Of a DNA stretch of 64,000 bases, positions 20,979 through 54,882 are shown piece by piece. This DNA is from Acidobacteria bacterium Mor1 (GTDB taxonomy: Bacteria > Acidobacteriota > Polarisedimenticolia > Polarisedimenticolales > Polarisedimenticolaceae): positions 2,845,263 to 2,909,262 of the forward strand of contig CP011806.1 of the NCBI GenBank assembly GCA_001664505.1, read 5' to 3'. The notes under the pieces were generated by a model. That model had not been told where the DNA came from and ran no database searches. It saw only the letters and a list, made by a program, of their open reading frames with translations. A program made the translations under genes and the position numbers. Every line of letters starts with the position of its first letter. Within the stretch, counting starts at the first letter, position 1.

Positions 20979-22439
20979 CTAGTTCGCGCGGAGTCCCGCC
21001 GGTGGAGCCGGTACCTGGCGTTGGGCAGCGGCCGGGGGGAACCACAGCTGCAGCCTCAGCTGCGAGAAGTGGGGGGTCAGCGGCGGTAGCCGCTCGGCAT
21101 CGTCGAAATCCGGATCGTAGTCCCAGTCCCGCTTGGGCGCGTAGTACTGGTAGCCGCCGTAGACCCAGGCTCCGTCCACGTGCCGGGGCGGCCCGATGCT
21201 GACCAGCGAGCCGCGGACGCGCAGTTGCTTGCCGCTCCAGTCCTCGTGCAGGCGCGGATAGTTGTGCAGCCCACCGCTGAAGCGCCCGAGATCCTGGCCT
21301 CCGGGCCCTTCGATGCCGCCGGTGGTATCGGTGCCGGCCAGAAGCGCGGCATGGACGATGGTGTCCTCGGCGGTGCGGAACCAGAGCGAGCGGGTGCTGG
21401 CCTCGTCATCCCAGGCGTTGGACAGCACGTTCAACGAATCGGCCATCACCGCGGCCGGCCGCTTCTCCACGGCGTTGAAGTCCCCCTGCAGGTACATGGC
21501 CTGATCGGTGACGAGGGTCAGTCCGCGTACCGGCGGCGCCGACGGATCCGAGGCGCCCAGCCGCGCGGCGTTGCTGACCCGCACTCCGTAGCCGTTGATC
21601 CCGGCGCTCTGGGGACCGCGCACGCTGAAGTAGGTCACCAACCCGCCGTCGGTGGCGTCGTCGAGCCCTCCCCTCCCTGACAGGAGCGGCTCCCGGTGAA
21701 TACAGTCGAGCAACTTGCCCGCGTCGATCTCGAGCATGTCGATGAAACGCCCTTCGCGGTTGTTGAAGAACGTGTCCGAGTAGGAGGCGGCCTCGCAGCC
21801 CTCGAGCAGCTTGGTGTGCGCCGGCAGCCGCCGGTTGTCGGCGTCGGCGACCTCGATCTCCGGCGTCCCGTCGCTCAGGCTCAGCACCACCCGCAGATCG
21901 GCGCGTTCCCAGAGCGCCGATCCGGGCGCCGCCTCGAGAATGCTCTCGGCGGGAACCTCGAGGGGTTCGACGTGAGCCCTCACCGCGGCCCGCTGCTCCC
22001 GGAGTTGATCGGCATCCAGGGTCTCCCGCCCGATCCAGCAACTCGGAAGCCCCGCGTCTCCCAGCGCGTCCCGCACCACGACGTCGCCCCACATGCAAAC
22101 ATCGGCGTTCTTGCGTCCCCGATAGACGTACCCGGCGGCGCTGACCGGGCCGTCGAGCCGCAACGTGCTGCCCGAATCCAGATACAGATCGCCGTTGGTG
22201 TGGACCGCTCCCGAGAGTTGCATAGGCGGCCCGGGCAAGATCTCCAGGTCCTTGTCGTAGAACACGGCAAACTGGAAAACCGGGACGGAACGGGTGGGGA
22301 GCTCCAGTTGGGCCGGCTCCAGTGCGACGACCCCGCCTCGGGTCTCGAGATGCAAAGCCCGGGCGGGAGCGCTCACGGAGAGCGCGATCACCGCCGCCAG
22401 TCCTCCCGATAGGATCGTCGCTCTGGAACCGAACCGCAT
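20979..22439 (-). CDS. Large exported protein resembling the C-terminal region of PilX-like proteins
   Basis: A 486-residue protein with an AGGAG ribosome site and a Sec signal peptide (LSGGLAAVIALSVSAPARA). No prepilin-type N-terminus is present. The mature sequence contains FAVFYDKDLEILPGPPMQLSG followed by VHTNGDLYLDSG. It ends with a YYAPKRDWDYDPDF and LPPLTPHFSQLRLQLW pattern. I associate these segments with large exported or type IV pilus-associated proteins of GC-rich bacteria, but cannot name a family with certainty. It has four scattered cysteines (CMWGD, CWIG, CEAAS, CIHRE) that could form disulfides. There are no operon partners. Confidence 0.55.
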   Translation of the reverse strand: MRFGSRATILSGGLAAVIALSVSAPARALHLETRGGVVALEPAQLELPTRSVPVFQFAVFYDKDLEILPGPPMQLSGAVHTNGDLYLDSGSTLRLDGPVSAAGYVYRGRKNADVCMWGDVVVRDALGDAGLPSCWIGRETLDADQLREQRAAVRAHVEPLEVPAESILEAAPGSALWERADLRVVLSLSDGTPEIEVADADNRRLPAHTKLLEGCEAASYSDTFFNNREGRFIDMLEIDAGKLLDCIHREPLLSGRGGLDDATDGGLVTYFSVRGPQSAGINGYGVRVSNAARLGASDPSAPPVRGLTLVTDQAMYLQGDFNAVEKRPAAVMADSLNVLSNAWDDEASTRSLWFRTAEDTIVHAALLAGTDTTGGIEGPGGQDLGRFSGGLHNYPRLHEDWSGKQLRVRGSLVSIGPPRHVDGAWVYGGYQYYAPKRDWDYDPDFDDAERLPPLTPHFSQLRLQLWFPPAAAQRQVPAPPAGLRAN

Positions 22440-24465: not shown

Positions 24466-25104
24466 TCAGCTTCCGCCATCCCACTGGATCTCGCCGGGAG
24501 GCGAGAACAGCGCTTCGTCCAGGGGCAGGCCGGTGTCGTAGCGGCGGTACTGCACCAGGTGCCGCAGGATCTCTCCTTCGTAGAGAGCCAGCGCAGACGG
24601 AGTGTTCTTGTCCGGGCGCACCAGCAGCCGCGCCTCGAGGGGCGGAATCGCCAGGGTGAACTCGTCGTAGTCGAGCCCCTGCACCTGGATGCGCTTGGGC
24701 GCGATGCCCTGGCTCTTCATGTAGGCGACTTCGCATCCCAGCTCGATGGCGTACACCGGCTGCGGGAAGCCCTGGACCGCAATCACCGGCGCCACCAGCG
24801 GCGGATCCCCTGCCTGCTTGACGAAGTGGCTGCCGGTCTTGGCCACCAGATCGGCCATCCAGGTTTCTTCGCCCCGGACGACGACGAGGGCCTGCATGTT
24901 GTTGACCGTATCCTTCGGCTCTTCCCAGCGGGCCATGCCGGCGCCTTGCCGGTAGAACACCTTGGAGAGTGCGTCGAAGGAATCCGGATCGGTTCCGGGG
25001 GTCAGGTTGCGGAACTCGATCCGCACCAGCGATTCCGGCGCACACTGAGCCGCGGCGGGCAGCACCGCGAGGAAACCGGCAAACAGCAACAAGATGGCTT
25101 TCAT
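24466..25104 (-). CDS. Exported protein of unknown function, partner of the ActB-like lipoprotein
   Basis: A 212-residue protein read from the ATG at 25102-25104, which opens a signal peptide (MKAILLLFAGFLAVLPAAA). An ATG ten codons upstream would spoil it. The mature protein has two cysteines (QCAPE and ELGCEVAY) that could pair. It shows mixed alpha/beta character with PDSFDALSKVFYRQGAGM and GLDYDEFTLAIPPLEARLLV. I do not recognise a family. It lies 67 bases downstream of the ActB-like lipoprotein on the same strand, with a hairpin between, so co-transcription with partial attenuation is possible. An extended -10-like TGT-TAGGCT seven bases before the ATG could give it its own leaderless transcript. 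Confidence 0.55.
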   Translation of the reverse strand: MKAILLLFAGFLAVLPAAAQCAPESLVRIEFRNLTPGTDPDSFDALSKVFYRQGAGMARWEEPKDTVNNMQALVVVRGEETWMADLVAKTGSHFVKQAGDPPLVAPVIAVQGFPQPVYAIELGCEVAYMKSQGIAPKRIQVQGLDYDEFTLAIPPLEARLLVRPDKNTPSALALYEGEILRHLVQYRRYDTGLPLDEALFSPPGEIQWDGGS

Positions 25105-25171: not shown

Positions 25172-27325
25172 TCAGCGCGCCAGGTCCAACTTCGCCTTGC
25201 CCTCCACCTTGGAGATCCGGGCCTCCAGGGTGTGGTCCCATCCACGTTCGGTGCGGATCCGATAGGTGTCGTAGCCGATGCCGTCGGCGGTCTTGCCCAA
25301 CCCGTCGCGTCCGAACCCCACGGGCAGGGTCACCGACCAGTCGGGCTGACCGTCGATGACGATCACCGGCAGCTGCATGGTGTGCTTCAGCACCTTGACC
25401 TCGATCATGTCCCCGGTACGCAGCTTGAAATGCTTGGCCGCGGCCTTGCTGATCCAGGCGGCGTTGCCGTTGCGCTGGCCGCTGATGGGATCGGGCTGGG
25501 AGACCAGTTCCGGGATGTTGGCGAAGCGTCCGTCGTAGGCCTGGGATGCGCGGAACAGCAATTCCATGTTGTTGGCGGTGGGAGAAGGCAGCACCAGGGA
25601 ACCGAGCATCGCCAGCTCCCGGCGTTCCAGGTCGAAGGGAGGGTACTCGGAACCCGGGACCAGGCCGGTCTTGCGCGCCTCGCTCCACACCTTGTCGAAG
25701 TCGGCGCCGAAGCGCTGCTTCCAGGTGTCCTTGACCCAGTCCTCGTCGCTCCGGTTCTCGCCGTCCACGACCAACCCCAGCAGCTCCACCGGGGACTTGC
25801 GATCGCCCTTGCGCTCGACCGCCGGCTGGGTCAGGCCGAGCATGCCGCCCACCGCCCGGGCATCGCCGAAGGATTCGAGAAAGTGCGCCATCGGTATATG
25901 CCAGGTCGCCTCCCGGGCGGTCTCGTCGCGGTGGGAGGCCAGCACGATGGTGCGGTCGGTCTTCTCCGGGATCAACGGGGCGAGATTCAGATCGAGGGGG
26001 AAGTCGTAGTACGGATTGACCCCGACCATCACCACGGTGTTGAAGTAGTTGCCTCGCAGGCCGAAGGAGAACTTCATGAAGTCGCGCCGGTAGGCGATCA
26101 ACGAGTCGGTGAACTCGTGGTGCATGATCGTCTTGCCGGCGTTCCCCAGCACGACGTTGAGCTGCGAACCGACCACGTGGGTCGGGCCCGCCTGGTGCCG
26201 CCCGGTGATGATCACCGCCTCGCCCCGATGTTCCATCAGCTTGTCGGCGATGCGGGTGACCCAGGCGGGGTCGACCTCGTCCGGGGCATAGCCCTGGGAG
26301 ATGTCCAGTTCCACACCCCGGGAAACGACCTCATTGGCCACCGCGGTGATCAGGCGATTGATCTGGTGCGAGTACATCGTGATGCGCTCGTCGGCAGCGC
26401 GTCCGGTGACCGTCGGCGTGGACTCGACCACCCACAACTCGGCACCATTCTTCTTGGCCTCGGCGAAGCGGCGCCGGTGCGCCAGGCTCTCGGCGGAATC
26501 CCCGAGAAAGTCGGACTCGATCGAGAGGATGAACTTGGCCTTGTCCAACCGTTCGTCGGCCTGGACCGCCTTGCCGAAGCCGGACATCGCCCAGCCCAGG
26601 TAGACCATCTCCTCACCGACGGCGTCGTAGGCCAGCCAGCGCGCCCGGGGCATCTCGGCGCGGACCTGTTTCCAGAAGCGGTGGATCGTCGGCGAGGTGA
26701 ACGAGGGGGTGACGATCACCAATCCTTCACCCTGCAGATTGGCGTGCTCGAGGTAGATCTCTTGCCACGCTTCGAGGAACGCGTCGTAGCTCGACGGCTG
26801 CCCTTCGTGCAGCACCCGGTCCACCCGGTCGGCGTCGTACAGATGGGTCAGCTGGGCGCGCATCCGCGCGTCGGTCTCGCCGCGGGTGCTGGGATGATCG
26901 GGATTGCCCTTGATGGCGACCGCCTTGCCGTCGCGGACATCGACATGCAGGCCGTAGGCGCTGGTGCCGAAGGGCATGGTCGTCGGGATCGTGGTGACAC
27001 TGGGCGCCGCCGCGGCTGCGGGCTCGGCGTCCGGGCTCGCGGCTACCGCAGAAGCCGCCTCGGCGCCGTCCGGCGGGGCCTCGGTGGAGTCGGCGCTCTC
27101 GGCGCCTCCCTCGGGCTCGGGGGTCTCGGCCGGAACCGGCGCGGCGTCGCTCACGGACCCGGACGGGGTCTCGGCAGCCCTTTCGGTCTCCGCGGGAGCG
27201 CTCTCGTCTTTTCCGCCGGCGCAGCCGGCGAGCAACAGAAGCGCGGTCAGCAACAGTACCCAGACCGGTGTGGCCCAGACCGGCGTGGCGCGGAGCCCCA
27301 CCAGGCTCCGAATCGACTTGTCCAT
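25172..27325 (-). CDS. Cysteine-free lipoprotein paralogue of the ActB molybdopterin-like domain
   Basis: A 717-residue protein from the ATG at 27323-27325, with GAGGGGG upstream. The lipobox LLLAG-C is the only cysteine in the protein. An acidic Ala/Glu/Pro linker runs to about residue 115. The rest is colinear with the first domain of ActB (51065-54232): KGNPDHPSTRGETDARM, the HFLESFGDARA motif (ActB HYLESWGDARA), SQAYDGRFAN (ActB SLYDGRYAN) and PVGFGRDGLGK near the end. No iron-sulphur motif is present, and the canonical cofactor Cys/Ser cannot be seen. It is thus a stand-alone, membrane-anchored, probably cofactor-free relative of a respiratory subunit. Its N-terminus carries a tandem ATPVW pair. 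Confidence 0.8.
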   Translation of the reverse strand: MDKSIRSLVGLRATPVWATPVWVLLLTALLLLAGCAGGKDESAPAETERAAETPSGSVSDAAPVPAETPEPEGGAESADSTEAPPDGAEAASAVAASPDAEPAAAAAPSVTTIPTTMPFGTSAYGLHVDVRDGKAVAIKGNPDHPSTRGETDARMRAQLTHLYDADRVDRVLHEGQPSSYDAFLEAWQEIYLEHANLQGEGLVIVTPSFTSPTIHRFWKQVRAEMPRARWLAYDAVGEEMVYLGWAMSGFGKAVQADERLDKAKFILSIESDFLGDSAESLAHRRRFAEAKKNGAELWVVESTPTVTGRAADERITMYSHQINRLITAVANEVVSRGVELDISQGYAPDEVDPAWVTRIADKLMEHRGEAVIITGRHQAGPTHVVGSQLNVVLGNAGKTIMHHEFTDSLIAYRRDFMKFSFGLRGNYFNTVVMVGVNPYYDFPLDLNLAPLIPEKTDRTIVLASHRDETAREATWHIPMAHFLESFGDARAVGGMLGLTQPAVERKGDRKSPVELLGLVVDGENRSDEDWVKDTWKQRFGADFDKVWSEARKTGLVPGSEYPPFDLERRELAMLGSLVLPSPTANNMELLFRASQAYDGRFANIPELVSQPDPISGQRNGNAAWISKAAAKHFKLRTGDMIEVKVLKHTMQLPVIVIDGQPDWSVTLPVGFGRDGLGKTADGIGYDTYRIRTERGWDHTLEARISKVEGKAKLDLAR

Positions 27326-27444
27326 GCTCGTAACCCCCTCGTCTCCGACTCGATTCAGGCGGGATCCCGCCATCGAACGTCCCAAGATACTGCGCCCGAA
27401 TGGGCGGTCAAGCAAACGTCCGGGCGCCGGATCCGGGGGGTCGG

Positions 27445-27483: not shown

Positions 27484-28179
27484 ATGGCGAACGAGACGAA
27501 CTCCAGCGAACAAGAACCCCGGCAGAATTCCAGGCCGGAAGCCGAGGCCTCGGGGCCCCGGGCGCTGCTGCGGAGCCCCTTCTTCTGGGCTTTCGTCATC
27601 GGCGCGGTGACCCTGACCCTGCTGCGCCCCTTCCTGATCCGGAGGGTCGAAGCCCCCGAGGTCACGGGCAAGGCTCCGATCTACCGCTTGATCGACCGGG
27701 AGGGCTCGGCCTTCGGGCCGGCGGACCTCGAGGGTCAGGTCGCGATTCTCACCCTGTTCGATCCCCTTTGCGCCGACCCCTGCCCGGACCTGATGAAGCA
27801 CCTGGGCCTTGTCCAGGCGCAGTACGTCCAACGCCGGATCGAGGGGGTCGTGCTGCTGAGCGTCAGCGCCGACCCCGAGAACACCACCCCGGAGCGGCTG
27901 GCGGAGCTGGCGGAGACCTACGGCGCCGAGAGCGGCCGCTGGGAGCTTCTGACCGGCTCCCTGGAGGAGGTCCGAGGTCTGGCCGAGGGCGTCGGCCTCG
28001 GCCCGCTGGAGGAGGGCGTGGAGGGTCTCCAGGAGGCTGCCCGCGCCCAGCGCCAGGCCCTGCTCGACGGCGGCGGCGGCCTCCGCGGCGTCTACGAGCG
28101 GCACCCGACCTACGTACTCGACGAGGTCTTTCACCGGGCCCAGCACGTGCTTCGGGAACAGCAGCGGGAAGAGCGCTAG
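27484..28179 (+). CDS. SCO1/SenC-type copper-binding thioredoxin-fold protein
   Basis: A 231-residue protein from the ATG at 27484. A membrane anchor at ~32-52 (PFFWAFVIGAVTLTLLRPFLI) precedes a SCO-like thioredoxin fold. The copper-binding cysteines are in LFDPLCADPCPDLM (C96 and C100, CxxxC), and the third ligand His is in ERHPTYVLDE (family pattern DH-T-x-x-x-x-x-D). Compared with the second SCO protein at 46038-46865 it carries an N-terminal rather than C-terminal anchor and a Leu/Gln-rich insert near residues 160-200. SCO proteins load CuA in oxidase subunit II. It lies 63 bases upstream of hemH on the same strand. No Shine-Dalgarno sequence is visible. Confidence 0.75.
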   Translation: MANETNSSEQEPRQNSRPEAEASGPRALLRSPFFWAFVIGAVTLTLLRPFLIRRVEAPEVTGKAPIYRLIDREGSAFGPADLEGQVAILTLFDPLCADPCPDLMKHLGLVQAQYVQRRIEGVVLLSVSADPENTTPERLAELAETYGAESGRWELLTGSLEEVRGLAEGVGLGPLEEGVEGLQEAARAQRQALLDGGGGLRGVYERHPTYVLDEVFHRAQHVLREQQREER

Positions 28180-28242: not shown

Positions 28243-29331
28243 ATGCTCCACCCGGAAAAAACCGGCCTCCTACTGCTCAATCTGGGGACCCCCGAGAGCC
28301 CTGCCCCTTCGGACGTGCGCCCCTACCTGCGCCAGTTCTTGTCGGATCCGCGGGTGCTCGATATCCCGGGCTGGAAGCGTTGGCTGATCCTCAACCTGTT
28401 CATCCTGCCCTTTCGCCCCAAGGAATCGGGCGAGGCCTACGAGAAGGTCTGGACCGACGAGGGATCTCCCCTGCTGGTCTACGGCCGTCAACTGACGAAC
28501 AAGGTCCAGGAACGTCTGGGAGAAGAGATCGTCGTCGATCTGGCGATGCGCTACGGAGAGCCGTCGATTCCCGGGACCTTGCGCCGCATGCGGGAGCAGG
28601 GGGTCGACCGGATCGTGGTCTTCCCGCTCTACCCCCAGTACAGCTCCGCGGCGACCGGCTCCTCGCTGGAAGAGGTGTTCCGCGAGGCGGGCAAGCTGTG
28701 GAACACGCCGTGGATCCAGGTGGTGCCCCCGTTCTACCACGAGGATGTCTACCTGGACGTCCAGGCCCGGGTGGCCCGGCCGCACCTCGAGGAGATCGAT
28801 CCCGAGGTGGTGTTCTTCAGCTTCCACGGCCTGCCCGAGCGGCACATGCGCAAGAGCGACGAGACCGGCCGGCATTGCCTCGAAACCCCGGGCTGCTGCG
28901 AGAAGATCGTCGAGGCCAACCGCAATTGCTACAGCGCCCAGTGCTACCACACCGCCGGCAAGCTGGCGGACAAGCTGGGCATCCCGATGGAAAAGCGGGT
29001 GATCTGTTTCCAATCCCGGCTGGGGCGCGACCCCTGGATCAAGCCCTACACCGACGAGCTGATCGTCGAGCACGCGAAAGCGGGTAAAAAGCGGGCGGTG
29101 ATTCTCAGTCCGGCCTTCGTGGCCGACTGTCTGGAGACCCTGGAAGAGCTGGCCATGCGCGGCCGGGAGGACTGGGAAGAGCATGGTGGCGAGCTTTTCC
29201 GTCTGGTACCCTCGGTAAACGCCGAGGATGACTGGGCGGACGCCGTCGTAGAACTGGCTGTCCGCACGACCGGGTTCCTCAAACCGGCGGCCGAGTCCGC
29301 CGACGAACCCTCCGCCGCGGCGAATCACTGA
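28243..29331 (+). CDS. hemH: Ferrochelatase
   Basis: A 362-residue ferrochelatase that inserts iron into protoporphyrin IX. Family features are GLLLLNLGTPESP at the start, the porphyrin pocket YPQYSSAATGSS, the catalytic His in FSFHGLPERH, and the late SPAFVADCLETLEEL containing the conserved acidic residues. Around residues 208-233 there is a cysteine-rich insertion (CLETPGCC, then NCYSAQC), reminiscent of ferrochelatases that bind a [2Fe-2S] cluster within the chain. With ctaB downstream (68 bases) and the SCO gene upstream it forms a heme/oxidase biogenesis cluster. The C-terminal ~25 residues are low complexity. Confidence 0.95.
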   Translation: MLHPEKTGLLLLNLGTPESPAPSDVRPYLRQFLSDPRVLDIPGWKRWLILNLFILPFRPKESGEAYEKVWTDEGSPLLVYGRQLTNKVQERLGEEIVVDLAMRYGEPSIPGTLRRMREQGVDRIVVFPLYPQYSSAATGSSLEEVFREAGKLWNTPWIQVVPPFYHEDVYLDVQARVARPHLEEIDPEVVFFSFHGLPERHMRKSDETGRHCLETPGCCEKIVEANRNCYSAQCYHTAGKLADKLGIPMEKRVICFQSRLGRDPWIKPYTDELIVEHAKAGKKRAVILSPAFVADCLETLEELAMRGREDWEEHGGELFRLVPSVNAEDDWADAVVELAVRTTGFLKPAAESADEPSAAANH

Positions 29332-41908: not shown

Positions 41909-42259
41909 CTACGGCACCACGCCGCCCGCGGCGGTGTAGCCCGGGATCATCGTCGGCTGGTACTGACCGGTATCGAGCAGCGCCAGGATGATGAACAGGC
42001 CTACGAAGGCGAGGGCTGATACGAAGATGACCGTGTTGAACGGGCGGTCCCAGACCAGGTGCATGAAGAACATGACCACCAGAGCCGCCTTGATCACGGC
42101 GATCACCATGGCGACCACCAGGTTCATGTTGCTACCGAAGTCGAAGCTGGTGACGGCCACGGTGGCCCAGGTCAGAATCAGCAGGATCGCCAGAACCCCG
42201 ATGAGGATCCAAAGGGGGACGACGTGAGGTACGTGCTTTCCGTCTGTCGATGACGCCAT
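41909..42259 (-). CDS. Cytochrome c oxidase subunit IV-like protein
   Basis: A 116-residue protein with three membrane helices (PLWILIGVLAILLILTWATVAV, then LVVAMVIAVIKAALVVMFFMHL, then IFVSALAFVGLFIILALLD). The IKAALVVMFFMHL segment is the conserved core of prokaryotic oxidase subunit IV (CtaF/CyoD-like, COX4_pro), which supports assembly of subunit I. It lies between the two subunit III genes, 16 bases from the upstream one and directly abutting the downstream one. Confidence 0.85.
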   Translation of the reverse strand: MASSTDGKHVPHVVPLWILIGVLAILLILTWATVAVTSFDFGSNMNLVVAMVIAVIKAALVVMFFMHLVWDRPFNTVIFVSALAFVGLFIILALLDTGQYQPTMIPGYTAAGGVVP

Positions 42260-42275
42260 GAGTCCTCTCCTCGGA

Positions 42276-43253
42276 TCAGTGAATCAGGTAGAGCAGCGGG
42301 AACAGGAAGATCCAGATCAAGTCGACCAAGTGCCAGTAGAGCCCGACGAGATCCACCGGCGTGTAGTACTCGGGCCCGAAGGCACCACCCAGCGACTTGA
42401 ACAGGAGCCAGAAGATCACGACGATCCCGCCCAGGACGTGGATCCCGTGCAGCCCGGTCATCAGGAAGTAGATACTGAAGAAGACCTTGGTCTTTTCCGG
42501 CTCGGGCCCGTGATGTTCTCCGTGGCCGTCGTCGGAGACGGTCAACACCGTGCCGCTGGGCGCCGAGCCCGGCGGAGCGATGGTGCTCTTCTCGACCTTG
42601 AGCCCCGAAGGCAGAATCTCCAGCACACCGTCGGGGAGCGCCTCGGCCTGCTCGCCGCCATGATCACCGGCAGCGGCTTCGTGGGCGGCATCTCCGTTGT
42701 GATCGGAAGCTCCGTTGTGATCGGCTGCGCCGTTGTGATCGGCGTCTCCGTGGTCATCTCCGCCGTCGTGGGCGGCGCCATGGTCGGCCGCGCCCGCCTC
42801 ATGGCCGTCGCCATGATCGTCGCCGTGATGCCCTTCCTCGTGGGGCTCGTAGGCCCGGGCCCAGAGCAGGCCGTGGTCGAACTTGGAGCTGTACTCGATG
42901 TACTTGATGCCCATGAAGCCGAAGGCGCCGGCGAGGGTCAGGATCAACATGAAGGGCAACAGTCTCTTCTGGCCCAGCTGGGCGGCACGCACCGCCCAGG
43001 CCATGGTCAGACTGCTGCAGAGCAGGACCACGGTGTTGATCGCACCCAGCTTGGTGTCGAGGAACTGATGGGCGTACATGAAGATCTCGGGGTGGTTGCC
43101 CCGGTAGACCGAGTACGCGCAAAACAGCCCACCGAACATCAGGACTTCGGTCGCGAGGAACAGCCACATCCCGAGCTTGCTCGAGGTGAACTGCTGTTCC
43201 GGCGTATCGAAGTGATGCTGTAGATACGACGGATGATCGTGGTCGTGACTCAC
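42276..43253 (-). CDS. coxC: Cytochrome c oxidase subunit III with a His-rich insertion
   Basis: A 325-residue subunit III. The N-terminal half has [21 protein letters not shown], the family's hallmark, and the C-terminal half has [15 protein letters not shown] and [20 protein letters not shown]. Between them, at residues ~136-255, is a hydrophilic insertion absent from normal subunit III. It contains about 19 histidines, many Asp/Gly, and three tandem 18-bp units encoding [18 protein letters not shown]. The N-terminus is also His-rich (MSHDHDH). The insertion would hang in an aqueous compartment and could bind copper, zinc or nickel. The ribosome site is GGGGAGAGG. Confidence 0.9.
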
Positions 43254-43267
43254 GGCCCTCTCCCCTA

Positions 43268-43281
43268 ATCGTTACGCGTCG

Positions 43282-43287
<6 letters not shown>
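43268..43287 (-). repeat. Two-copy 10-bp repeat at the coxA stop
   Basis: On the minus strand GCGTAACGAC is followed at once by GCGTAACGAT. The TAA of the first copy (43282-43284) is the coxA stop; the second copy repeats TAA in another frame. The array leads into the coxC ribosome site. Confidence 0.8.
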
Positions 43288-44970
<1,683 letters not shown>

Positions 44971-44991
44971 CTGTTCTCCTCCAGTCCCTCT

Positions 44992-45013
44992 GAGCCCGTC
45001 GCGCAGCGGGCTC
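44992..45013 (-). promoter_or_regulatory. Hairpin between coxB and coxA
   Basis: GAGCCCG-TCGCGCAG-CGGGCTC is a perfect 7-bp stem with an eight-base loop in the 58-base gap between coxB and coxA, the longest gap within the operon's cox part. There is no T-run. It could stabilise the coxA message or set subunit stoichiometry. The coxB stop itself starts a loose two-copy GCAAC-type repeat. Confidence 0.5.
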
Positions 45014-45028
45014 TACGTTGCGTGCTCA

Positions 45029-46036
45029 CTAGTTGCCGAGCGACTTCAAGTAGGCGATCAATGCCGAGATATCCTGCTCGCTGAGGCGGCCCTGATAGGT
45101 CGGCATCACCGGGTCGTAGCCCGCCACGATGGTGGCCTGGGGCTCGAGGATTGACTCTCGGACGTAATTCTCATCGACCACGGCGGTGCCTCCGCCGACC
45201 AGGGCATGCTCGATGCCGTAGAGGCCGAGGAAGGTCGGACCGGTGCCGTTGACTCCGTCCACCGAGTGGCAGGTCTTGCAGCCGCGGGTGTTGTAGAGCT
45301 TCTCGCCGATCTCTTCCATCGACCAGCCCTTGTTGTAGTAGTCGGATTCTTCCTTGAGCCAGGGTTCGAACCCACCCGGCTCGTGCACCGTGACCTTGGC
45401 CAGCATGGCCGAGTGGTCCTTGCCGCAATACTCGGTGCACATCAGGTCATAGTCGCCGGCCTCGGTGGCCTCGAACCAGAGGTTCGAATAGCGGCCGGGC
45501 ACGATGTCCTTCTTGACCCGGAACTCCGGCACGAAGAACGCGTGCAACACATCGGACGAGGTCATGACCAGCTCGATCGGCGTGTCGATCGGCACGTGCA
45601 GCTCGTTGGTCACCGCCCCGTTGGGATAGGTGAACAGCCAGCTCCACTTCATCGCCGAGACCTGGATCTCGTAGGTGTCCTGGGGCGGGGTGGCCATATT
45701 CACGTACTGGGCGAAGCCCTGCCAGAACAACACGACCACGATGCCCAGGGGCAGCACCGACCAGGCGATCTCGATGGGGAGATGGTGGTCGGGCGCGGGC
45801 AGCGCCTCTTGATCCGGCGTGCGCCGCTTGTAGCGGAACATGAAGTACACGGTGATCAGCGTGATCAACACGAAGAAGAACACCGACAGCCAGAAGACCA
45901 CGTCCCAGGCGAAGTCGATGTCACCGGCGAAGGTGGATACCGAGCGGGGTAGCCAGACACGCTCGCTTGCCGCTGCGGCGATACCGGCAGGGATGGAGAT
46001 CACCCGCTGGAGAATTGAGGCCAACACGTCGATCAT
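45029..46036 (-). CDS. coxB: Cytochrome c oxidase subunit II with fused heme c (caa3-type)
   Basis: A 335-residue protein from the ATG at 46034-46036, one base after the sco stop, with GGAAGG upstream. Two membrane helices (~45-65 and ~92-108) anchor a periplasmic cupredoxin domain. The CuA ligands are H165 (SDVLHAFFVPEF) and C200, E202, C204, H208 and M211 in MCTEYCGKDHSAM. A C-terminal cytochrome c domain follows with heme motif CKTCH (253-257) and distal Met in YDPVMPTYQG. The fused heme accepts electrons from ACIII. The short gap to coxA contains a hairpin. Confidence 0.97.
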   Translation of the reverse strand: MIDVLASILQRVISIPAGIAAAASERVWLPRSVSTFAGDIDFAWDVVFWLSVFFFVLITLITVYFMFRYKRRTPDQEALPAPDHHLPIEIAWSVLPLGIVVVLFWQGFAQYVNMATPPQDTYEIQVSAMKWSWLFTYPNGAVTNELHVPIDTPIELVMTSSDVLHAFFVPEFRVKKDIVPGRYSNLWFEATEAGDYDLMCTEYCGKDHSAMLAKVTVHEPGGFEPWLKEESDYYNKGWSMEEIGEKLYNTRGCKTCHSVDGVNGTGPTFLGLYGIEHALVGGGTAVVDENYVRESILEPQATIVAGYDPVMPTYQGRLSEQDISALIAYLKSLGN

Positions 46037-46037
46037 C

Positions 46038-46865
46038 TCAGGCAACCTTCCGCTTCCTTCTGAGCTCGCGGGCCCAGAAAACGAGCAAAGCAACCCCAAG
46101 GACAGCCACGGTCAGCGCGCCGCCCACACGCATGATGTTCTTGGCCACTGGAGCGTACCGGCCTGCGGTAGCGTCGTAATGATAGCAATATAGGAGGAAG
46201 CGATCCAAAGTGGATCCGACCTTCCCCTCCGACGCTTCGACCAGGCCCAGCCGCAGGTCACGTGGCTCGAACTTGATGCCGTACAAATACCGCGAAACCA
46301 CCCCTCCAGGGGTGGACAGAGTCAGGACAGCGGGGTGTGCATATTCATCCCGAGCTTCCACGTACCGGTACTTGAAGCCGACCGCGTCGGCCAGAGCCCG
46401 GACATCCGCCTCCTGCCCGGTGAGGAAGTGCCAGCCGTTTTCGGCACCGGGCAATTTCAGTTCGCGCAGATACTCCTGCTTTTTGAACCGGGCCAGATCG
46501 GGTCCCTCCCGGGGATCGATACTGACCGTGACGATTTCGAACTTCTCACCGGGGACCCAGTCCAGTCCCTTGAGGCCCTTGGCCATCCCGTTCAGCACCA
46601 GGCTGCACAGCATCGGGCACTCGTAGTAGGCCAGCACCAGGATCACCGGGCGTTCCTTGCCGAAGTAATCTCCGAGACGGATCGTCCGGCCCCGCTCATT
46701 CTTGAATTGGAGGTCGAGGGGCAGGGTGTCGCCGAGATGCTCGACGACGTCGACCCCTTCGAGGTCCGCGGGCTGGTCCTGGAGCAACTGGGCCTGGGCC
46801 GGTCCCGCTACCAGGAAGAGCACCAGGCAGATCGGGGTCAGGACTTGGCGCGGGCTCGGTTGCAT
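46038..46865 (-). CDS. SCO1/SenC copper chaperone of the oxidase operon
   Basis: A 275-residue protein from the ATG at 46863-46865, which begins a signal peptide (ICLVLFLVAGPAQAQ). The thioredoxin-like domain carries LAYYECPMLCSLVLNGM (copper ligands in CPMLC), the family's VTVSIDPREGPDLA, and the third ligand His in DEYAHPAVLTLSTPGG. A C-terminal helix (ALTVAVLGVALLVFWARELRRKRK) anchors it in the membrane. It delivers copper to the CuA centre of CoxB, whose gene starts one base downstream. Upstream frames without start signals were not included. Confidence 0.92.
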   Translation of the reverse strand: MQPSPRQVLTPICLVLFLVAGPAQAQLLQDQPADLEGVDVVEHLGDTLPLDLQFKNERGRTIRLGDYFGKERPVILVLAYYECPMLCSLVLNGMAKGLKGLDWVPGEKFEIVTVSIDPREGPDLARFKKQEYLRELKLPGAENGWHFLTGQEADVRALADAVGFKYRYVEARDEYAHPAVLTLSTPGGVVSRYLYGIKFEPRDLRLGLVEASEGKVGSTLDRFLLYCYHYDATAGRYAPVAKNIMRVGGALTVAVLGVALLVFWARELRRKRKVA

Positions 46866-46881
46866 GGCGCCGCCTCGGGGG

Positions 46882-47214
46882 CTACTCCCCGCCCTGGGTC
46901 TCGTAGTCTTCGACCACGAGATCGATGGCCCGTTCCAGCGGGATCGCCGCAACGCCATCCTGTTCGTTGATCCAGCGGTATCCGTCGAGCGCCTCGGACT
47001 GCGCGACCCGCATCTCACCCAGTTCAGCCGGCTTGGCCGCGATGATCTTCTTTTGATGCTCGGCGTCGATGGTCACGAGGAAGATCGTGTGCAGCAGGAT
47101 CACGATGACGAACAGCAGAACGAAACCGACGAGCCCGACGAGGATCGTGCTCCACGACTGAGGATCGTCGTCCTTCATCGTGATGTCGGTGTGGTAGTGG
47201 TGCGTATCGGCCAT
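46882..47214 (-). CDS. Small single-helix membrane protein in the ACIII-oxidase operon
   Basis: A 110-residue protein from the ATG at 47212-47214, with GAGG six bases upstream; a GTG at 47226 overlapping the actF stop is less likely. The N-terminus is His-rich (MADTHHYHTDITM). One membrane helix covers ~28-50 (ILVGLVGFVLLFVIVILLHTIFL). The remainder is a soluble tail with EMRVAQSEALDGYRWINEQDG, ending EDYETQGGE. Its fixed place between actF and sco suggests a small accessory ACIII or oxidase subunit, comparable in position to the extra small subunits of known ACIII. No homology was recognised. A PQSW pattern precedes the helix. Confidence 0.65.
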   Translation of the reverse strand: MADTHHYHTDITMKDDDPQSWSTILVGLVGFVLLFVIVILLHTIFLVTIDAEHQKKIIAAKPAELGEMRVAQSEALDGYRWINEQDGVAAIPLERAIDLVVEDYETQGGE

Positions 47215-47222
47215 ATCGATCC

Positions 47223-48449
47223 TCACGCGTTCTCGAAGCTGAGCGATTCATGCAGGCGCGGATCGCCCACCGGGATCAGCGCCTGACGTCCGAGCTGCCA
47301 CAGGCCGAAGCCCAGGAAGATGCCTCCGACCCCGAGGAAGCAGAGGACATCCATCAGCCCCAGCGAGGGACCTGCGGGATGCAGCTGCGGCATGACCATC
47401 CAGTGCATGTCGATCCAGTGCATCACCAGCAGCCAGGCGGCGCCGAAGATCAGGGTGATGCCGCGGCGCTTGAGATGGCGCGACATCAGGAAGAAGAACG
47501 GGAAGATGAAGTGACCGACCAGGAGCAGCGCGCTCACGTCGGCCCAACCGCCCTCGCCGAAGCCGATCATGCGGGCCTTGTACCACATGGTCTCTTCGGG
47601 GATGTTCCCGTACCAGATCAGCATGAACTGGGAGAAACCGATGTAGGCCCAGAAGACGACGAAGGCGAACATCAGCTTGCCGAGATCCTGGAAGTGCTCG
47701 GCGGTGACCACGTTCTGCAGGACGCCGGTGCGCTGCAGGAAGTGGAACAGCAACACCATCATCGACACGGCGCCGAGGAAGGAGCCGGCGAAGAAGTAGA
47801 CCCCCCAGATGGTGCTGTACCAGTGGGGATAGAGCGACATCAGCAGGTCGAAGGCGGCCATCGTGACGCTGAGCGCGAAGATGAACATCGCGGGAGCGGC
47901 GAGCCCCTCGAGCCTGTTGGTGATCTTGTGGTCCTTGCTCTGGTCCTGGCGGATCGAGCCGCGGGCGAAGAACCAGGCCATTCCGGCCCAGAGCAGGCCG
48001 TAGAACACCAGGCGGAACTTGAAGAAGCCTTCGTTGAGCCAGGGCGCCTTGCCCTGGAGGATCTTGTCCCCTTCGACGTGATCGGCGTGGCTCCACTCGT
48101 AGAGGTCGTGGATGCCCGGAATGATCAGCAGCATCAGGAGAGCCAGCGGGATCAGCGTCATCGAGAAGATCTCGGCCATGCGGCGGAGTGAAACACTCCA
48201 GCCGGCGCGGCAGAGGCGCATGATCAGCACGAAGAACAGGCAGCCGACCGCGAGCGACAGGAAGTAGCTGAAGTTCTGCAGGTACGAGCGGAAGAACTGC
48301 TCGCGCGTCTCGTCGCTACCCTGCCCCATGAAGTAGCCGGCGCCGAGCGCCACCACCCCGATCAGCAGGAACACGATCCAGAGCTTGCTGACGCCCGATC
48401 CGAGCCGCAGCTGCTCGTCCGGAATCTCGACTTTGTGATGAGCACTCAT
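47223..48449 (-). CDS. actF: Alternative complex III subunit ActF (NrfD-like membrane protein)
   Basis: A 408-residue membrane protein with about ten helices, related to ActC/NrfD. Visible segments are GCLFFVLIMRLCRAGWSVSLRRMAE, then WFFARGSIRQDQS, then FQDLGKLMFAFVVFWAYIGFSQFMLIWYGNIPEET, and the C-terminal LGVGGIFLGFGLWQLG. The FSQ-x-x-x-I-W-Y-G-N-x-P-E-E pattern is characteristic of ActF. The N-terminus is His-containing (MSAHHKVEIP). It completes the membrane part of the quinol-oxidising complex. It overlaps actE by ATGA. Confidence 0.92.
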   Translation of the reverse strand: MSAHHKVEIPDEQLRLGSGVSKLWIVFLLIGVVALGAGYFMGQGSDETREQFFRSYLQNFSYFLSLAVGCLFFVLIMRLCRAGWSVSLRRMAEIFSMTLIPLALLMLLIIPGIHDLYEWSHADHVEGDKILQGKAPWLNEGFFKFRLVFYGLLWAGMAWFFARGSIRQDQSKDHKITNRLEGLAAPAMFIFALSVTMAAFDLLMSLYPHWYSTIWGVYFFAGSFLGAVSMMVLLFHFLQRTGVLQNVVTAEHFQDLGKLMFAFVVFWAYIGFSQFMLIWYGNIPEETMWYKARMIGFGEGGWADVSALLLVGHFIFPFFFLMSRHLKRRGITLIFGAAWLLVMHWIDMHWMVMPQLHPAGPSLGLMDVLCFLGVGGIFLGFGLWQLGRQALIPVGDPRLHESLSFENA

Positions 48450-49087
48450 CGCAGGGTCCCGCGCACTTCATTGGGAACATCTTCGACCGTGGCCGCCTGG
48501 CTTCGCTGAAGCGCGCGAATGTAGGCGACGATCGCCCAGCGATCCTTCTCTTCGATGCTGGACGCGTAGGGCGACATGGTGCGGATGCCGTTGGTGATCG
48601 TGTTGTACAGGTGGCCGTCGGAGCGGGTGTTTGCCGGGGCGTCGTGGAACGACGAAGGCGGCACCCAGGCACCCTCCTGGAGCTGCTCGGCCCGGCGGGA
48701 GACCATGCCGTCTCCGTAGCCCGAGAGTCCGTGGCAGGGGGTGCAGAAGATCTCGTAGCGTTCCTGGCCCCGCAGGATCAGGTCGCGGTCGACTTCCATC
48801 GGCAGGGTCGTGGCCCACTGGCCGTCGACGATTCCGCGATAGAAGTGATCGTCCTCCTTGAGCCAGCCGCGGGCGACGGTGCCGGGCACGTGGGCGCGCA
48901 TGGCGCGGCCGTCAACGAACAGCGGGTTGCCCTTTTGCGTCTTGAACTTCGGCTGGCTGTCCATGTCGGGGATGAGATGGACGCGCGGCTTCGGCGAGGT
49001 GTCGACGCGGGCGCGGGCGATGCAGGCGTAGGGCACCATCGCGATGGCGATGACCAGGGCGACGGTCCAGAAGAGCCAGCGAGGCAT
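48446..49087 (-). CDS. actE: Alternative complex III subunit ActE (mono-heme cytochrome c)
   Basis: A 213-residue membrane-anchored cytochrome c. The N-terminal helix (WLFWTVALVIAIAMVPYACIA) is followed by a periplasmic domain with one heme motif, CTPCH in YEIFCTPCHGLSGYGDGM. A distal Met is likely in IRTMSPYASSIEEKDRWAIVAYIRALQ, the family's typical ending. ActE passes electrons from the pentaheme ActA toward the oxidase or a soluble cytochrome c. The alanine of the signal is followed by a Cys at residue ~18 (YACIA), so lipidation is possible. It overlaps actF by four bases. Confidence 0.93.
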   Translation of the reverse strand: MPRWLFWTVALVIAIAMVPYACIARARVDTSPKPRVHLIPDMDSQPKFKTQKGNPLFVDGRAMRAHVPGTVARGWLKEDDHFYRGIVDGQWATTLPMEVDRDLILRGQERYEIFCTPCHGLSGYGDGMVSRRAEQLQEGAWVPPSSFHDAPANTRSDGHLYNTITNGIRTMSPYASSIEEKDRWAIVAYIRALQRSQAATVEDVPNEVRGTLR

Positions 49088-49090
49088 CGA

Positions 49091-49630
49091 TCAGTCCTCC
49101 AGCGACTGCACGTCGGTGCAATGCATCGAGCGCAGCAGTTCCTCGGTGCGCGCCTGATCGAACCGAGGGTCGGCCGCCTCGATTGCCAGGAAGAAGCGGT
49201 CGGTGGTGACCCGCTTGAACGCCTTGGAACGGAAGGTCGGGTGGTAGAACTTCGGCAGATCGTTGAGGAACATCATGCCGCCGAAGGTCGACAGCGCCGC
49301 GAACAGCACCGTCAGCTCGAAGGCCACCGGAATGTTCGCCGGAAGACTCCACATCGGCTTACCACTGATGTTGATCGGATAGTCGACGGCGTTCATCCAC
49401 CACTGCATCAGGATCGCCACCGCGGTTCCGGTGATGCCGGCCCCGAGGGTGATGAAGGGCAGCCACGAGTCCTTGAGGCCCATCGCCTTTTCCAGCCCGT
49501 GGACCGGGTACGGCGTGTAGGTGTCCCACTTGGTGTAGCCGGCGTCGCGAACCGCCTCGGAAGCCTTCATCAGCTTGAGCGGATTGTCGAACTCGGCGAG
49601 GACGCCCCAGAGCTTGGTCTGTTCGGCCAT
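49091..49630 (-). CDS. actD: Alternative complex III subunit ActD (DUF3341)
   Basis: A 179-residue protein with the DUF3341 pattern. It begins WGVLAEFDNPLKLMKASEAVRDAGYTKWDTYTPYPVHGL, then two closely spaced helices (PFITLGAGITGTAVAILMQWW and ANIPVAFELTVLFAALSTFGGMMFL) and a soluble end with RFDQARTEELLRS. ActD is a peripheral/membrane subunit without cofactors that contacts ActB and ActC. It starts directly at the actC stop and is followed after three bases by actE. Confidence 0.93.
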   Translation of the reverse strand: MAEQTKLWGVLAEFDNPLKLMKASEAVRDAGYTKWDTYTPYPVHGLEKAMGLKDSWLPFITLGAGITGTAVAILMQWWMNAVDYPINISGKPMWSLPANIPVAFELTVLFAALSTFGGMMFLNDLPKFYHPTFRSKAFKRVTTDRFFLAIEAADPRFDQARTEELLRSMHCTDVQSLED

Positions 49631-51064
<1,434 letters not shown>

Positions 51065-54000
51065 TTAGTGCCCCGCACCGTGAGCGTCGGAGGAATGATC
51101 GCCGCCGCCGTGACCGTCGCCATGACCGTCACCGTGGCCGCCGCCATGTCCGTCACCGTGGTGGTCGTCGTGAAGCACGACCCCCTCGCCCAGGCCTTCC
51201 CCCTTGCGGTTGCGCAGCCGCGCCAGGTAGCGCGTCCGCGGCTTGACCTTGATTTCGTCGAGCATCGCATAGGCCCGCGCGTCGGCCTGAAGCTCCGCCA
51301 CGTGGCTATGCGAATCGTTGAGATCGCCGAAAGTGATCGCCTGCGTCGGGCAGGCCTGCGCGCAGGCCGGCACGACCTCGCCGTCGTGCAGCTCGCGCTT
51401 TTCGTTCTTCGCCGTGATCTTGGCGGTGGTGATGCGCTGCACGCAGTAGGTGCACTTTTCCATCACGCCGCGGCTGCGGACCGTGACCTCGGGGTTCATC
51501 ACCATCATCTCGGTGGTGGTCCGCTTGCGTCCGCCGGCGAACTTGTCCTTCTGGTTGTTGAACCAGTTAAAACGGCGCACCTTGTACGGGCAGTTGTTCA
51601 GGCAGTAGCGGGTCCCGACGCAACGGTTGTAGACCATCACGTTCAACCCCTCGTCGTCGTGGACGGTGGCCGCGACCGGGCAAACCTGCTCGCAGGGCGC
51701 GTTCTCGCAGTGATGGCAGGTCAACGGCTGCATGGCGACGTCGACCTTGTCGGCCTCGATCGAGGCCATATCGAGATTCATCGTGTCGTCGTCGGGTTGC
51801 TCGACCTTGAAGTAGCGGTCGACCCGCAGCCAGTGCATCTCGCGGCCGTTGTAGATCTCGTCCTTGCCGACGATCGGGATGTTGTTCTCGGCCTGACAGG
51901 CGATGATGCAGGTGTTGCAGCCGGTGCAGGCCGACAGATCGATCGCCATGCCCCACTTGTGGCCTTCGTAGGTCGCCTCTTTCCACAGCTCCACCGGGTG
52001 GTGCTGCAGATCGACGGCGGCCACCGAGGCGGCTCCGTACTTGACGAAGTCGGGCAGGTTCACCTCGCGGGCGTGAACCTCGGCGCGACGCTGGGTCTGC
52101 TGGCGTCCGCCCTCGATCTTTCCGAGAACCGGCAGGCTGACGCCATCGTCGATGGCCCAGTGGTTCTGGGTCGTCGCAAGCTTGTAATTGCGGCCGGTCT
52201 TGCTCAGGCCGACCTTGACGAAACCGGGGTTGGCGCTCCCGCGCAGCGGGTAGACGTCGACTCCCCGTCCGGTGCCGATGCGGCCCGCCGCGGCGCGGCC
52301 GTAGCCCAGCCAGACGGCAACGGTGCCGTCGGCCTGTCCCGGGGTGACCGTCACCGGCAGGTCGAGGCTGGTTCCACCCTGATCGACGGCGACCAGGCTG
52401 CCGTCGCGGACGCCCATGGCGGCGGCATCCTTGGGCGACATCATCAGGACGTTGTCCCAGGTGACCTTGGTCAGCGGCTCGGGCAACTCCATCAACCAAC
52501 CGTTGTTGGCGTAGCGGCCGTCGTAGAGCGACGGATCGGGCAGGAAAGTCAGTTCGAAGTCGCCGCTACCGCCGGCGCCGCCCTGAACCGAAGAGCCCCA
52601 ACCGTCGGTGACCGTCGGCTCCTGTGCGGCGAAACCGGTTCCGGCCCGCAGCCCGTCGTGGAGCGCGCGGCGCCACGAAGCTTCGAAGTCGTGGTCGGTG
52701 TCCATGCCGCGATAGGTCTCGCGAACCAGGTCGTAACCCTTGGCGGCGGTGTTGCCCATCAAGCCGGCGAGCACTTCCACGGCGCTCTTGCCGTTGAACA
52801 GCGGCTCGATCAGCGGCTGGACGACGCTGTAGGTGCCGTCCCAGGCGCGGGCATCGCCCCACGACTCGAGGTAGTGGGCGGCAGGCAGGCACCAGTCGCA
52901 GGCCTGGCCGGTCTCGTCGTGGTAGAAGCCCCAGTGGATCTTGTTGGCGACCTTGGCCAGCTTGCCGCCGAAGTCGATATCGGCGGGCGCGTCGTAGACC
53001 GGGTTGGAATCGAGAACCAGCAGGGTCTCGACCCGTCCCGCGTCCATCTCCGCCGCGAGACTCTTGATCGCCTCGAGATGGTGCGGCCGCGACGGCTCGG
53101 GATCGTCACTGTAGACCACCGAATTGCCGACGTTGCCCAGCGCCACGTTGAGGGCGTGGGCCAGAGCGTGCACCGCGGCAGGTTGACGCGGGCCGGCGGT
53201 GATCAGGCTGTGCCCCCGGTTGCTGACCAGCGCCTCGACCAGTTCGTCGTCGATGGCCGCGGCGTTGCCGCCGGAGAGCCCGGCGGGAACCGCGATGCCG
53301 CGAGCGGCGAGCTTGGAACCGAGGGCGGCGGCGGCGCCGGCCACATCGGCCGAGGCCATCGGGACCCGTTTGTCGGCGGCGATGCCGGTCAGGCTGAAGG
53401 CGCTCTCGAACACATGAAGCTGGTTCATGTGATCGCCGCGACGGTGCGCGGCAAAGTCGCGGGCGTTGCGCACTGCAGTCGGATGGTCTTTGAGCAGGTC
53501 GTCTTCGAAGGAGACGATCACCTTGGCCTGGTCGAGCTTGAGGTGCGGGCGCATCGGACGGCCGAAGGCCATCTTGGTGCCGTCACGCTCGTTGTCCCGG
53601 GAGAGCGCCTCGTACTCGTACCAGCGGGCGTCCGGGAAACGCTGCTGCATCCGGCTGCGCAGGCGGCGCAGGCTCGGCGACGACTGGGCGCGGGAGAGCA
53701 CCGCGAAGCCCTGGCCGTCCCCCTTCGGAGCAGCCGCACCGAAGAAGCCGTCCCAGCTATCGGCGGAGTAGGTCTCGCCGTCACGCTTGAGCACCCGGGA
53801 GTTGCGGTCCGGGTCGTAGAGATCGAGAACACTCGCCTGGGCCGTGGTGTCGGTGCCGCCGAGGCTCGCCGGGTGCGAGGGGTTGCCCTCGACCTTGACC
53901 GGGCGGCCGTCGTAACTGGTAACCGTGACACCCAGGGCCGACCCGCCCACATCCATCGCCGTGGCGAACTGGAGCGGCACGCCCGGGACGTATCCCTCGG

Positions 54001-54232
54001 GGCGTGAGGCGAAGGGCAGGATTTCTTCGACCGGCCAGCGGCAGGCGGTCATGCCCGCCAGGCCCATCGAAGCACCCATGAACTTGAGGAAATGGCGCCG
54101 GGAAGTCGGCGCCATCATCTCGTCGGCCGGGGCCGGGAACTCGTTGTCGACGAAACGTCGGAACTCGTCGTTGTCGGCGAGCTCGTCGAGGCTACGCCAG
54201 TAGGTCTTCCCGGAAGGCTTTAACGATGACAT
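51065..54232 (-). CDS. actB: Alternative complex III subunit ActB (molybdopterin-like plus iron-sulphur)
   Basis: A 1055-residue protein starting at the ATG at 54230-54232, overlapping actA by 13 bases, with GAGG upstream. SRRHFLKFMGAS (RR at 45-46) is a twin-arginine signal. Residues ~80-780 are a molybdopterin-oxidoreductase-like domain without visible cofactor Cys, as in known ActB. Residues ~790-1010 are ferredoxin-like. Cluster motifs include CTGCNTCIIACQAEN, CHHCENAPCEQVCP, CVGTRYCLNNCPYK, CTYCVQRI and CAQACPTQ, enough for four clusters. The C-terminus ends in a tail with about 13 histidines (GHGDGHGDGHGGGDH-like) on the periplasmic side. Confidence 0.96.
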   Translation of the reverse strand: MSSLKPSGKTYWRSLDELADNDEFRRFVDNEFPAPADEMMAPTSRRHFLKFMGASMGLAGMTACRWPVEEILPFASRPEGYVPGVPLQFATAMDVGGSALGVTVTSYDGRPVKVEGNPSHPASLGGTDTTAQASVLDLYDPDRNSRVLKRDGETYSADSWDGFFGAAAPKGDGQGFAVLSRAQSSPSLRRLRSRMQQRFPDARWYEYEALSRDNERDGTKMAFGRPMRPHLKLDQAKVIVSFEDDLLKDHPTAVRNARDFAAHRRGDHMNQLHVFESAFSLTGIAADKRVPMASADVAGAAAALGSKLAARGIAVPAGLSGGNAAAIDDELVEALVSNRGHSLITAGPRQPAAVHALAHALNVALGNVGNSVVYSDDPEPSRPHHLEAIKSLAAEMDAGRVETLLVLDSNPVYDAPADIDFGGKLAKVANKIHWGFYHDETGQACDWCLPAAHYLESWGDARAWDGTYSVVQPLIEPLFNGKSAVEVLAGLMGNTAAKGYDLVRETYRGMDTDHDFEASWRRALHDGLRAGTGFAAQEPTVTDGWGSSVQGGAGGSGDFELTFLPDPSLYDGRYANNGWLMELPEPLTKVTWDNVLMMSPKDAAAMGVRDGSLVAVDQGGTSLDLPVTVTPGQADGTVAVWLGYGRAAAGRIGTGRGVDVYPLRGSANPGFVKVGLSKTGRNYKLATTQNHWAIDDGVSLPVLGKIEGGRQQTQRRAEVHAREVNLPDFVKYGAASVAAVDLQHHPVELWKEATYEGHKWGMAIDLSACTGCNTCIIACQAENNIPIVGKDEIYNGREMHWLRVDRYFKVEQPDDDTMNLDMASIEADKVDVAMQPLTCHHCENAPCEQVCPVAATVHDDEGLNVMVYNRCVGTRYCLNNCPYKVRRFNWFNNQKDKFAGGRKRTTTEMMVMNPEVTVRSRGVMEKCTYCVQRITTAKITAKNEKRELHDGEVVPACAQACPTQAITFGDLNDSHSHVAELQADARAYAMLDEIKVKPRTRYLARLRNRKGEGLGEGVVLHDDHHGDGHGGGHGDGHGDGHGGGDHSSDAHGAGH

Positions 54233-54882
54233 GCGCTGCAATCCTCGGGAGGATTGATGTTGTGATCCGCCTTGAGCTGGGCGCCAAGCGCCTCGCGATC
54301 TTCGGCGGTCCAATCCATCGTGGTCACGTATTCGACAGGACGCAGGTGCGGTTCCGGGTTGCGGTGGCACTCGAGGCACCAGCCCATGCTGAGCCGCTCT
54401 TCCTGGTACACAACTTCCATCTTGTCGACGCGACCGTGACACTCGACGCAGCCGACGCCGCGATTGACGTGCACGGAGTGGTTGAAGTAGGCGTAGTCGG
54501 CAAGGTCGTGAACCTTGACCCACTCCACCGGCTCACCACTGGCGTAGCTCTCGCGCACCGGCAACAAGTCGGCGCTGTCGACCTTGATGTTGGTGTGGCA
54601 ATTCATGCAGGTCTGGGTCGGCGGGATTGCTGCGAAACCCGCTTTCTCGACGGTCGTATGGCAGTAACGACAGTCGATGCCCAGTTCACCGGCATGGAGC
54701 GCATGGCTGTACGGAACCGGCTGAGCCGGCGCGTAGCCAACATCGGTCGCGCGTGGAGAGAAACCGAAGTAGACGATGCCCCCGATGTAGAGCGGAGCAA
54801 CAAGCAGAACGACGCCGACGATCGGTCGGAGCCGGTCGAGCCACTTCGGAAAAATGAGCGAGGTTTGGTGGTCTTTGCTCAT
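54220..54882 (-). CDS. actA: Alternative complex III subunit ActA (pentaheme cytochrome c)
   Basis: A 220-residue protein with one N-terminal membrane helix (RPIVGVVLLVAPLYIGGIVYF) and a periplasmic domain carrying five heme c motifs: CRYCH, CMNCH, CVECH, CLECH and CSACH. Extra His residues such as YSHALHAG and FNHSVHV provide axial ligands. It receives electrons from ActB and passes them to ActE. It is the first gene of the 13-gene operon. The ATG has no Shine-Dalgarno sequence (CCACCTCCCC precedes it) but lies ten bases after a TAGAAT -10 box. The stop lies inside actB. Confidence 0.96.
   Translation of the reverse strand: MSKDHQTSLIFPKWLDRLRPIVGVVLLVAPLYIGGIVYFGFSPRATDVGYAPAQPVPYSHALHAGELGIDCRYCHTTVEKAGFAAIPPTQTCMNCHTNIKVDSADLLPVRESYASGEPVEWVKVHDLADYAYFNHSVHVNRGVGCVECHGRVDKMEVVYQEERLSMGWCLECHRNPEPHLRPVEYVTTMDWTAEDREALGAQLKADHNINPPEDCSACHR

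Follow-up and report, generated by a model that had tools for sequence, protein, structure and literature searches.

We found that P0002, an orphan gene of Acidobacteria bacterium Mor1, encodes the cofactor-free B1 domain of ActB as a lipoprotein without the B2 iron-sulphur domain, and that the predicted fold of this domain is intact. The gene very probably derives from an ActB, and it is most likely the last piece (B1) of a second ActB operon that has been lost. We place this origin, together with a present-day role as a scaffold, at slightly better than even odds (roughly 55%), with the weight on the origin. On this reading, P0002 illustrates how a complex can lose its redox half and keep a structural one.

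The gene and its protein

In the window (the whole stretch of Mor1 DNA analysed, 64,000 nucleotides), P0002 occupies positions 25172-27325 on the minus strand and encodes 717 aa; in the window's list of open reading frames, its frame opens with the ATG at 27325 and closes with the stop codon at 25172-25174. Its assignment as an ActB1 gene comes from this reading frame, BLASTP against the genome's own ActB, and codon statistics. A Shine-Dalgarno-like GAGGGGG precedes the ATG, as does a promoter-like site about 60 nt upstream (TTGACC-16-TATCTT, 27384-27411, minus strand; a consensus match only). The promoter-like site is downstream of an alternative in-frame TTG (27469), which makes the ATG the better start. 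GC3 is 0.89, and the coding statistics resemble those of the neighbours and are normal for the genome. A 764-aa open reading frame is also present antisense to P0002 in this high-GC DNA.

As the original prediction stated, P0002 lies next to a SCO gene and a ferrochelatase gene, both of them conserved neighbours. The divergent SCO1/SenC-like gene (SCO_b, 27484-28179, plus strand; Pfam SCO1-SenC and synteny) starts about 160 bp from the start of P0002, and the ferrochelatase gene (HemH, 28243-29331, plus strand; family-model matches and synteny) lies beyond it. The window also contains a complete canonical actABCDEF-SCO-cox operon (41909-54882, minus strand; family matches and synteny), which includes the full-length ActB reading frame of this genome (B1 plus iron-sulphur B2; 51065-54523, minus strand, true start probably near 54240). 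The proposed distance of 24 kb to the act operon holds for actB (about 24 kb), but the nearest of the act genes, ActF at 47223, is only about 20 kb away. Directly downstream of P0002 is a gene for a 212-aa secreted protein with no Pfam family (24466-25104, minus strand). We rejected it as a partner of P0002, since homologs (32-37%) occurred in just three of the 41 genomes of the class and in the order member with a copy (G007) this homolog and the ActB slot are on separate contigs. Another secreted protein, at 20979-22439 on the minus strand, weakly resembles HpsA, a cyanobacterial hormogonium polysaccharide protein, with a score below the cut-off (1.2e-15).

BLASTP aligned P0002 with the first domain of the genome's own ActB at 2e-66 (30% identity over 586 aa). 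The four motifs quoted in the original prediction correspond in the same order in the two proteins: KGNPDHP with EGNPSHP, FLESFGDARA with YLESWGDARA, YDGRFAN with YDGRYAN, and GFGRDGLGK with GYGRAAAGR. An AlphaFold model built with 51 sequences had a pLDDT of 85 and a pTM of 0.83, with blocks mostly above pLDDT 90 in the molybdopterin-oxidoreductase-like, cofactor-free B1 domain (residues 107-717; 25175-27007, minus strand). VIA-align superposed residues 108-717 of the model on residues 102-711 of R. castenholzii ActB (6lod_B) over 599 residues, with a Z score of 47.4 and an rmsd of 1.8 Å. Five ActB entries ranked first by Foldseek and VIA-align, followed by respiratory arsenate reductase (Z 28.8) and polysulfide reductase (Z 27.5). 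The C-terminal end of P0002 coincides with the B1 boundary in solved ActB structures (6lod, 6f0k, 8k9e/9ilt, 6btm), to which its identity is 23-30% and with which it shares a cofactor-free domain; the B2 3Fe-4S/4Fe-4S domain is absent. Sequence and structure comparisons thus bear out the proposal of a stand-alone, iron-sulphur-free relative of the first domain of ActB.

ActB was also a better match than other molybdopterin families. The four best PDB sequences were all ActB (2.8e-80 to 3.7e-32), against an E value of 0.04 for the next, and the best NCBIfam model, QrcB (NF041783), reached 59.6 bits where the cut-off is 440. QrcB of sulfate reducers offers a likeness as a molybdopterin-binding-like subunit of an ACIII-related complex, but there are no qrc-like partner genes beside P0002. 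The Pfam models Molybdop_Fe4S4 and Molydop_binding fell under their gathering scores (19.6 vs 22.7 and 16.5 vs 26.8 bits, respectively), and PF00384 was not reported in the Pfam search.

We compared P0002 with 85 positions that show 90% conservation or more across 117 ActB N-domains. P0002 retains 63 of these and has lost 22, while other ActBs retain at least 75 (median 83). All 16 conserved glycines are retained (Fisher p 0.009) and the losses cluster in loops (p 0.02), although both tests were picked after the data had been seen and are suggestive only. The clusters fall in GRPxKIEG (134-139), QPLIxPL (505-506), WLQE (606-609) and at W619, and the replaced loop residues comprise R134, P135, K137, E139, R291, R296, W606, E609 and W619. 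The polar motifs GNPDHP, YDADR and HFLE...DAR are retained.

The only cysteine of P0002 is, as claimed, in the lipobox: inspection of the sequence placed Cys35 (27221-27223, minus strand; Ala at +2) in LLLLAGC (residues 29-35). Before it stands a Sec-type lipoprotein signal peptide that lacks a twin-arginine motif (residues 1-34; 27224-27325, minus strand), and after it an Ala/Glu/Pro-rich linker of about 70 aa (residues 36-106; 27008-27220, minus strand), recognised from composition, pLDDT and comparison with ActB N-termini. Residues 1-95 are predicted to be disordered (pLDDT below 50). The RR motif, absent from P0002, is found in all 115 ActB relatives with upstream sequence, and 111 of the 115 carry a lipobox-like Cys. 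The conserved segment after this Cys, CRRPVEKIVPY..PE..VPG, is replaced in P0002 by the linker. The genome's own ActB combines a Tat signal and a lipobox-like Cys, and the ActB of F. johnsoniae, likewise exported, is described as lipid-anchored (PMC8552683). P0002 can therefore be called a lipoprotein, but the contrast with ActB in the original phrase "lipoprotein version" is misleading. Because ActBs share the lipobox-like Cys and one is lipid-anchored, the anchor of P0002 is, judging from these sequences, ancestral, while the change from Tat to Sec and the tether are new.

P0002 thus departs from ActB in having no B2 iron-sulphur domain, Tat motif, post-Cys segment or act operon. As a variant of ActB, an isolated B1 with a Sec lipoprotein signal, it is real and well supported. 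For a single gene in a single genome, however, the "new cofactor-free family" of the original prediction claims too much.

Distribution and origin

None of the 10 genomes of the order, the 41 of the class or the 396 sampled from the phylum yielded another stand-alone relative. The other ActB matches in these genomes are frames of about 950-1300 residues that span B1 and B2, save for fragments at contig ends. Two short ActB frames in the phylum (G340 and G188) were considered as stand-alone B1 domains and rejected, since both are cut by contig ends. With P0002 as the query, no relative turned up among 84,980 species genomes, and at 80 named loci from these genomes the ActB N-domain is followed by the iron-sulphur domain unless the contig stops (L074, L080). 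As far as we have searched, the stand-alone form is so far unique to the Mor1 genome. One of the named loci, L068 (JAIEMQ010000072.1), is titled Cyanobacteria bacterium; it is apparently the same contig as G191:C21, from a genome of Mor1's own phylum (97,692 bases, same match position), and probably a mislabelled MAG.

The divergent slot beside the SCO and ferrochelatase genes holds a full-length ActB operon in six relatives. In four of them this is an ActA-ActB-ActE-cytochrome-bd-like cluster: three order or family relatives (G007, G004, G002) have HemH-SCO_b opposite ActA-ActB-ActE, a cytochrome-bd-subunit-I-like gene and c-type cytochromes, and a Thermoanaerobaculia MAG (L079) has SCO_b opposite an ActA-ActB-ActE-bd-like cluster. 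The other two slots hold canonical ACIII: HemH-SCO_b faces ActA-ActB in G001, while in G005 it faces ActA, which stands at the end of its contig, with ActB and the rest of the operon on another one. In Mor1 the slot holds P0002 as a single gene, with no actA or other act genes beside it. The position beside SCO and ferrochelatase, which the original prediction took as a hint of an assembly function, is thus inherited and therefore gives no evidence for such a role. This neighbourhood can mislead, as it came from the lost operon.

Several further observations point to such a loss. The Mor1 genome has one ActB-type iron-sulphur domain, which is fused in the canonical ActB; another iron-sulphur match near 263 kb adjoins its own molybdopterin subunit. 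We found no ortholog of the bd-like subunit in this genome, where the search gave just a partial match (24%) to a different frame of 528 aa. Around the P0002 locus, searches for remnants of the iron-sulphur domain, ActA, ActE and the bd-like gene returned chance-level matches only. The branch of P0002 is very long (2.0 changes per column against a median of 0.5), so the phylogeny is weak and the placement unsure. AU tests mildly rejected a grouping with own-type canonical ActBs (p-AU 0.038), and with it a recent duplicate of the genome's own ActB, but did not reject a grouping with the ActBs linked to bd-like genes (p-AU 0.19). The second ActBs of this kind in L049, L050, L056 and L079 share the slot opposite SCO_b (and HemH) and are among the ActB sequences closest to P0002 (33-35%), but they are full length and stand in complete operons.

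Given the ActB operons in the slot of relatives, the single iron-sulphur domain, the missing bd-like ortholog and the p-AU values, we consider an origin from a second ActB operon most likely. In an ancestor, this slot would have held a second ActA-ActB operon, most likely of the ActA-ActB-ActE-bd-like type, although two relatives have canonical ACIII there instead. ActA, the iron-sulphur domain and the remainder would then have been deleted and B1 alone kept. Tat exports folded, cofactor-loaded proteins, so the change from Tat to Sec fits the loss of the iron-sulphur clusters: without clusters to insert before export, Tat would no longer have been needed.

Possible roles in the periplasm

For the present role of P0002, we tentatively favour a passive periplasmic module for docking or scaffolding, tethered to the membrane, as suggested by the predicted structure. 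Because it has no recognisable redox centre, P0002 should not carry electrons. Its retained B1 core would instead bind a partner protein, the simplest mode of action for a tethered, folded domain that comes from a multi-subunit complex and has no cofactor. Plausible partners, and natural candidates by descent, are c-type cytochromes or the cell's own canonical ACIII-caa3 assembly. Against this, the tether could equally put the protein in the outer membrane, away from ACIII, since by the E. coli sorting rule an Ala at +2 directs lipoproteins there. A molybdopterin-fold protein that acts as a scaffold without a cofactor has a precedent in FhcB, which, like ActB, is a cofactor-free MopB protein (PMC10100899), although FhcB is cytoplasmic, belongs to a formyltransferase/hydrolase complex and represents another branch of the superfamily. 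More specifically, P0002 might have been domesticated, through the Tat-to-Sec switch and the new tether, into a cofactor-free periplasmic protein that scaffolds or regulates the ACIII-caa3 chain that remains. In this somewhat more doubtful version of the same idea, a new accessory protein would have arisen as a pseudo-enzyme. A naturally isolated, still-folded B1 would in any case be a tractable handle on what this domain can do without the iron-sulphur wire.

A relic is a serious rival to the scaffold, if an unlikely one: the domain would have been left after the loss of the second operon and would still be translated while drifting without a selected function. The occurrence of P0002 in one genome only (among the order, class and phylum sample searched), its long branch and the loss of 22 of 85 conserved positions agree with this, and high GC makes long frames cheap, as the antisense frame illustrates. 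A drifting relic is harder to reconcile with an intact 717-codon frame of normal codon usage, a plausible new Sec lipoprotein signal and Shine-Dalgarno sequence, and a confident fold in which 16 of 16 conserved glycines persist.

Assembly, scaffolding or regulation of ACIII by P0002, as raised in the original prediction, is possible. As a dedicated assembly factor or regulator, the lipoprotein would mimic B1 and transiently hold ActA, ActE or the nascent complex in the periplasm. We regard this, too, as unlikely. It draws on the intact B1 fold of the model, on the full canonical act operon in the same genome and on the R. marinus ACIII, in which ActB touches all other subunits (PMC5928083). 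However, other ACIII genomes were searched and lack P0002, so there is no conserved association, and the SCO and HemH position is inherited. The features that hold ActB in its complex, namely the B2 domain and the conserved post-Cys segment, are missing from P0002 along with several conserved loops; in R. marinus the N-terminal segment is intertwined with ActE (PMC5928083).

A ligand-, haem- or copper-binding periplasmic protein that uses the empty cofactor cleft and acts with SCO_b in oxidase biogenesis seems improbable. P0002 and SCO_b/HemH share the 160-bp divergent intergenic region and the polar motifs are kept, but the neighbourhood descends from that of an electron-transfer operon and gives no independent link. 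P0002 also lacks a free Cys, and we recognised no metal-binding motif in it. A split ActB, in which P0002 would be the B1 subunit and join an iron-sulphur subunit encoded elsewhere, is largely refuted and very improbable. Such a split into actB1 and actB2, with an OR-N5 bd-like oxidase downstream, is documented in Nitrospirales (PMC12342949), where B1 is likewise encoded on its own, but there the ActB2 iron-sulphur gene and other act genes accompany it. Beside P0002 there is no act gene and no iron-sulphur gene or remnant; the sole ActB-type iron-sulphur domain of the genome is fused in the canonical ActB, and the 263-kb match has its own molybdopterin subunit. Finally, a catalytic Mo/W enzyme of the DMSO-reductase superfamily would have the same overall fold, but is hardly credible given the sub-threshold or unreported Pfam models, the closest structures being cofactor-free ActBs, the absence of any Cys besides that of the lipobox and the lack of a Tat signal for a cofactor-loaded protein.

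Second ActB clusters in relatives

The searches also revealed a second type of cluster in Acidobacteriota relatives, represented by L049:6835-15879 and also seen in L050, L051, L054, L055, L056, L058, L059, L066 and L079. It comprises ActA-ActB(FeS)-ActE and, immediately after these, a cytochrome-bd-subunit-I-like gene, two c-type cytochromes and a cytochrome/EB_dh-domain protein; ActC, ActD and ActF were not detected in these clusters. Apparently, the periplasmic module of an ACIII is here joined to a bd-like membrane subunit rather than to NrfD. A related actABCDE-OR-N5 arrangement is known from Nitrospirales, but with ActC (PMC12342949). L161 (G001:C176) and L162 (G004:C233) hold yet another ActA-F cluster, which is divergent, shares little identity with the canonical one and has an additional iron-sulphur-protein match upstream; G004 thus carries three ActB genes.
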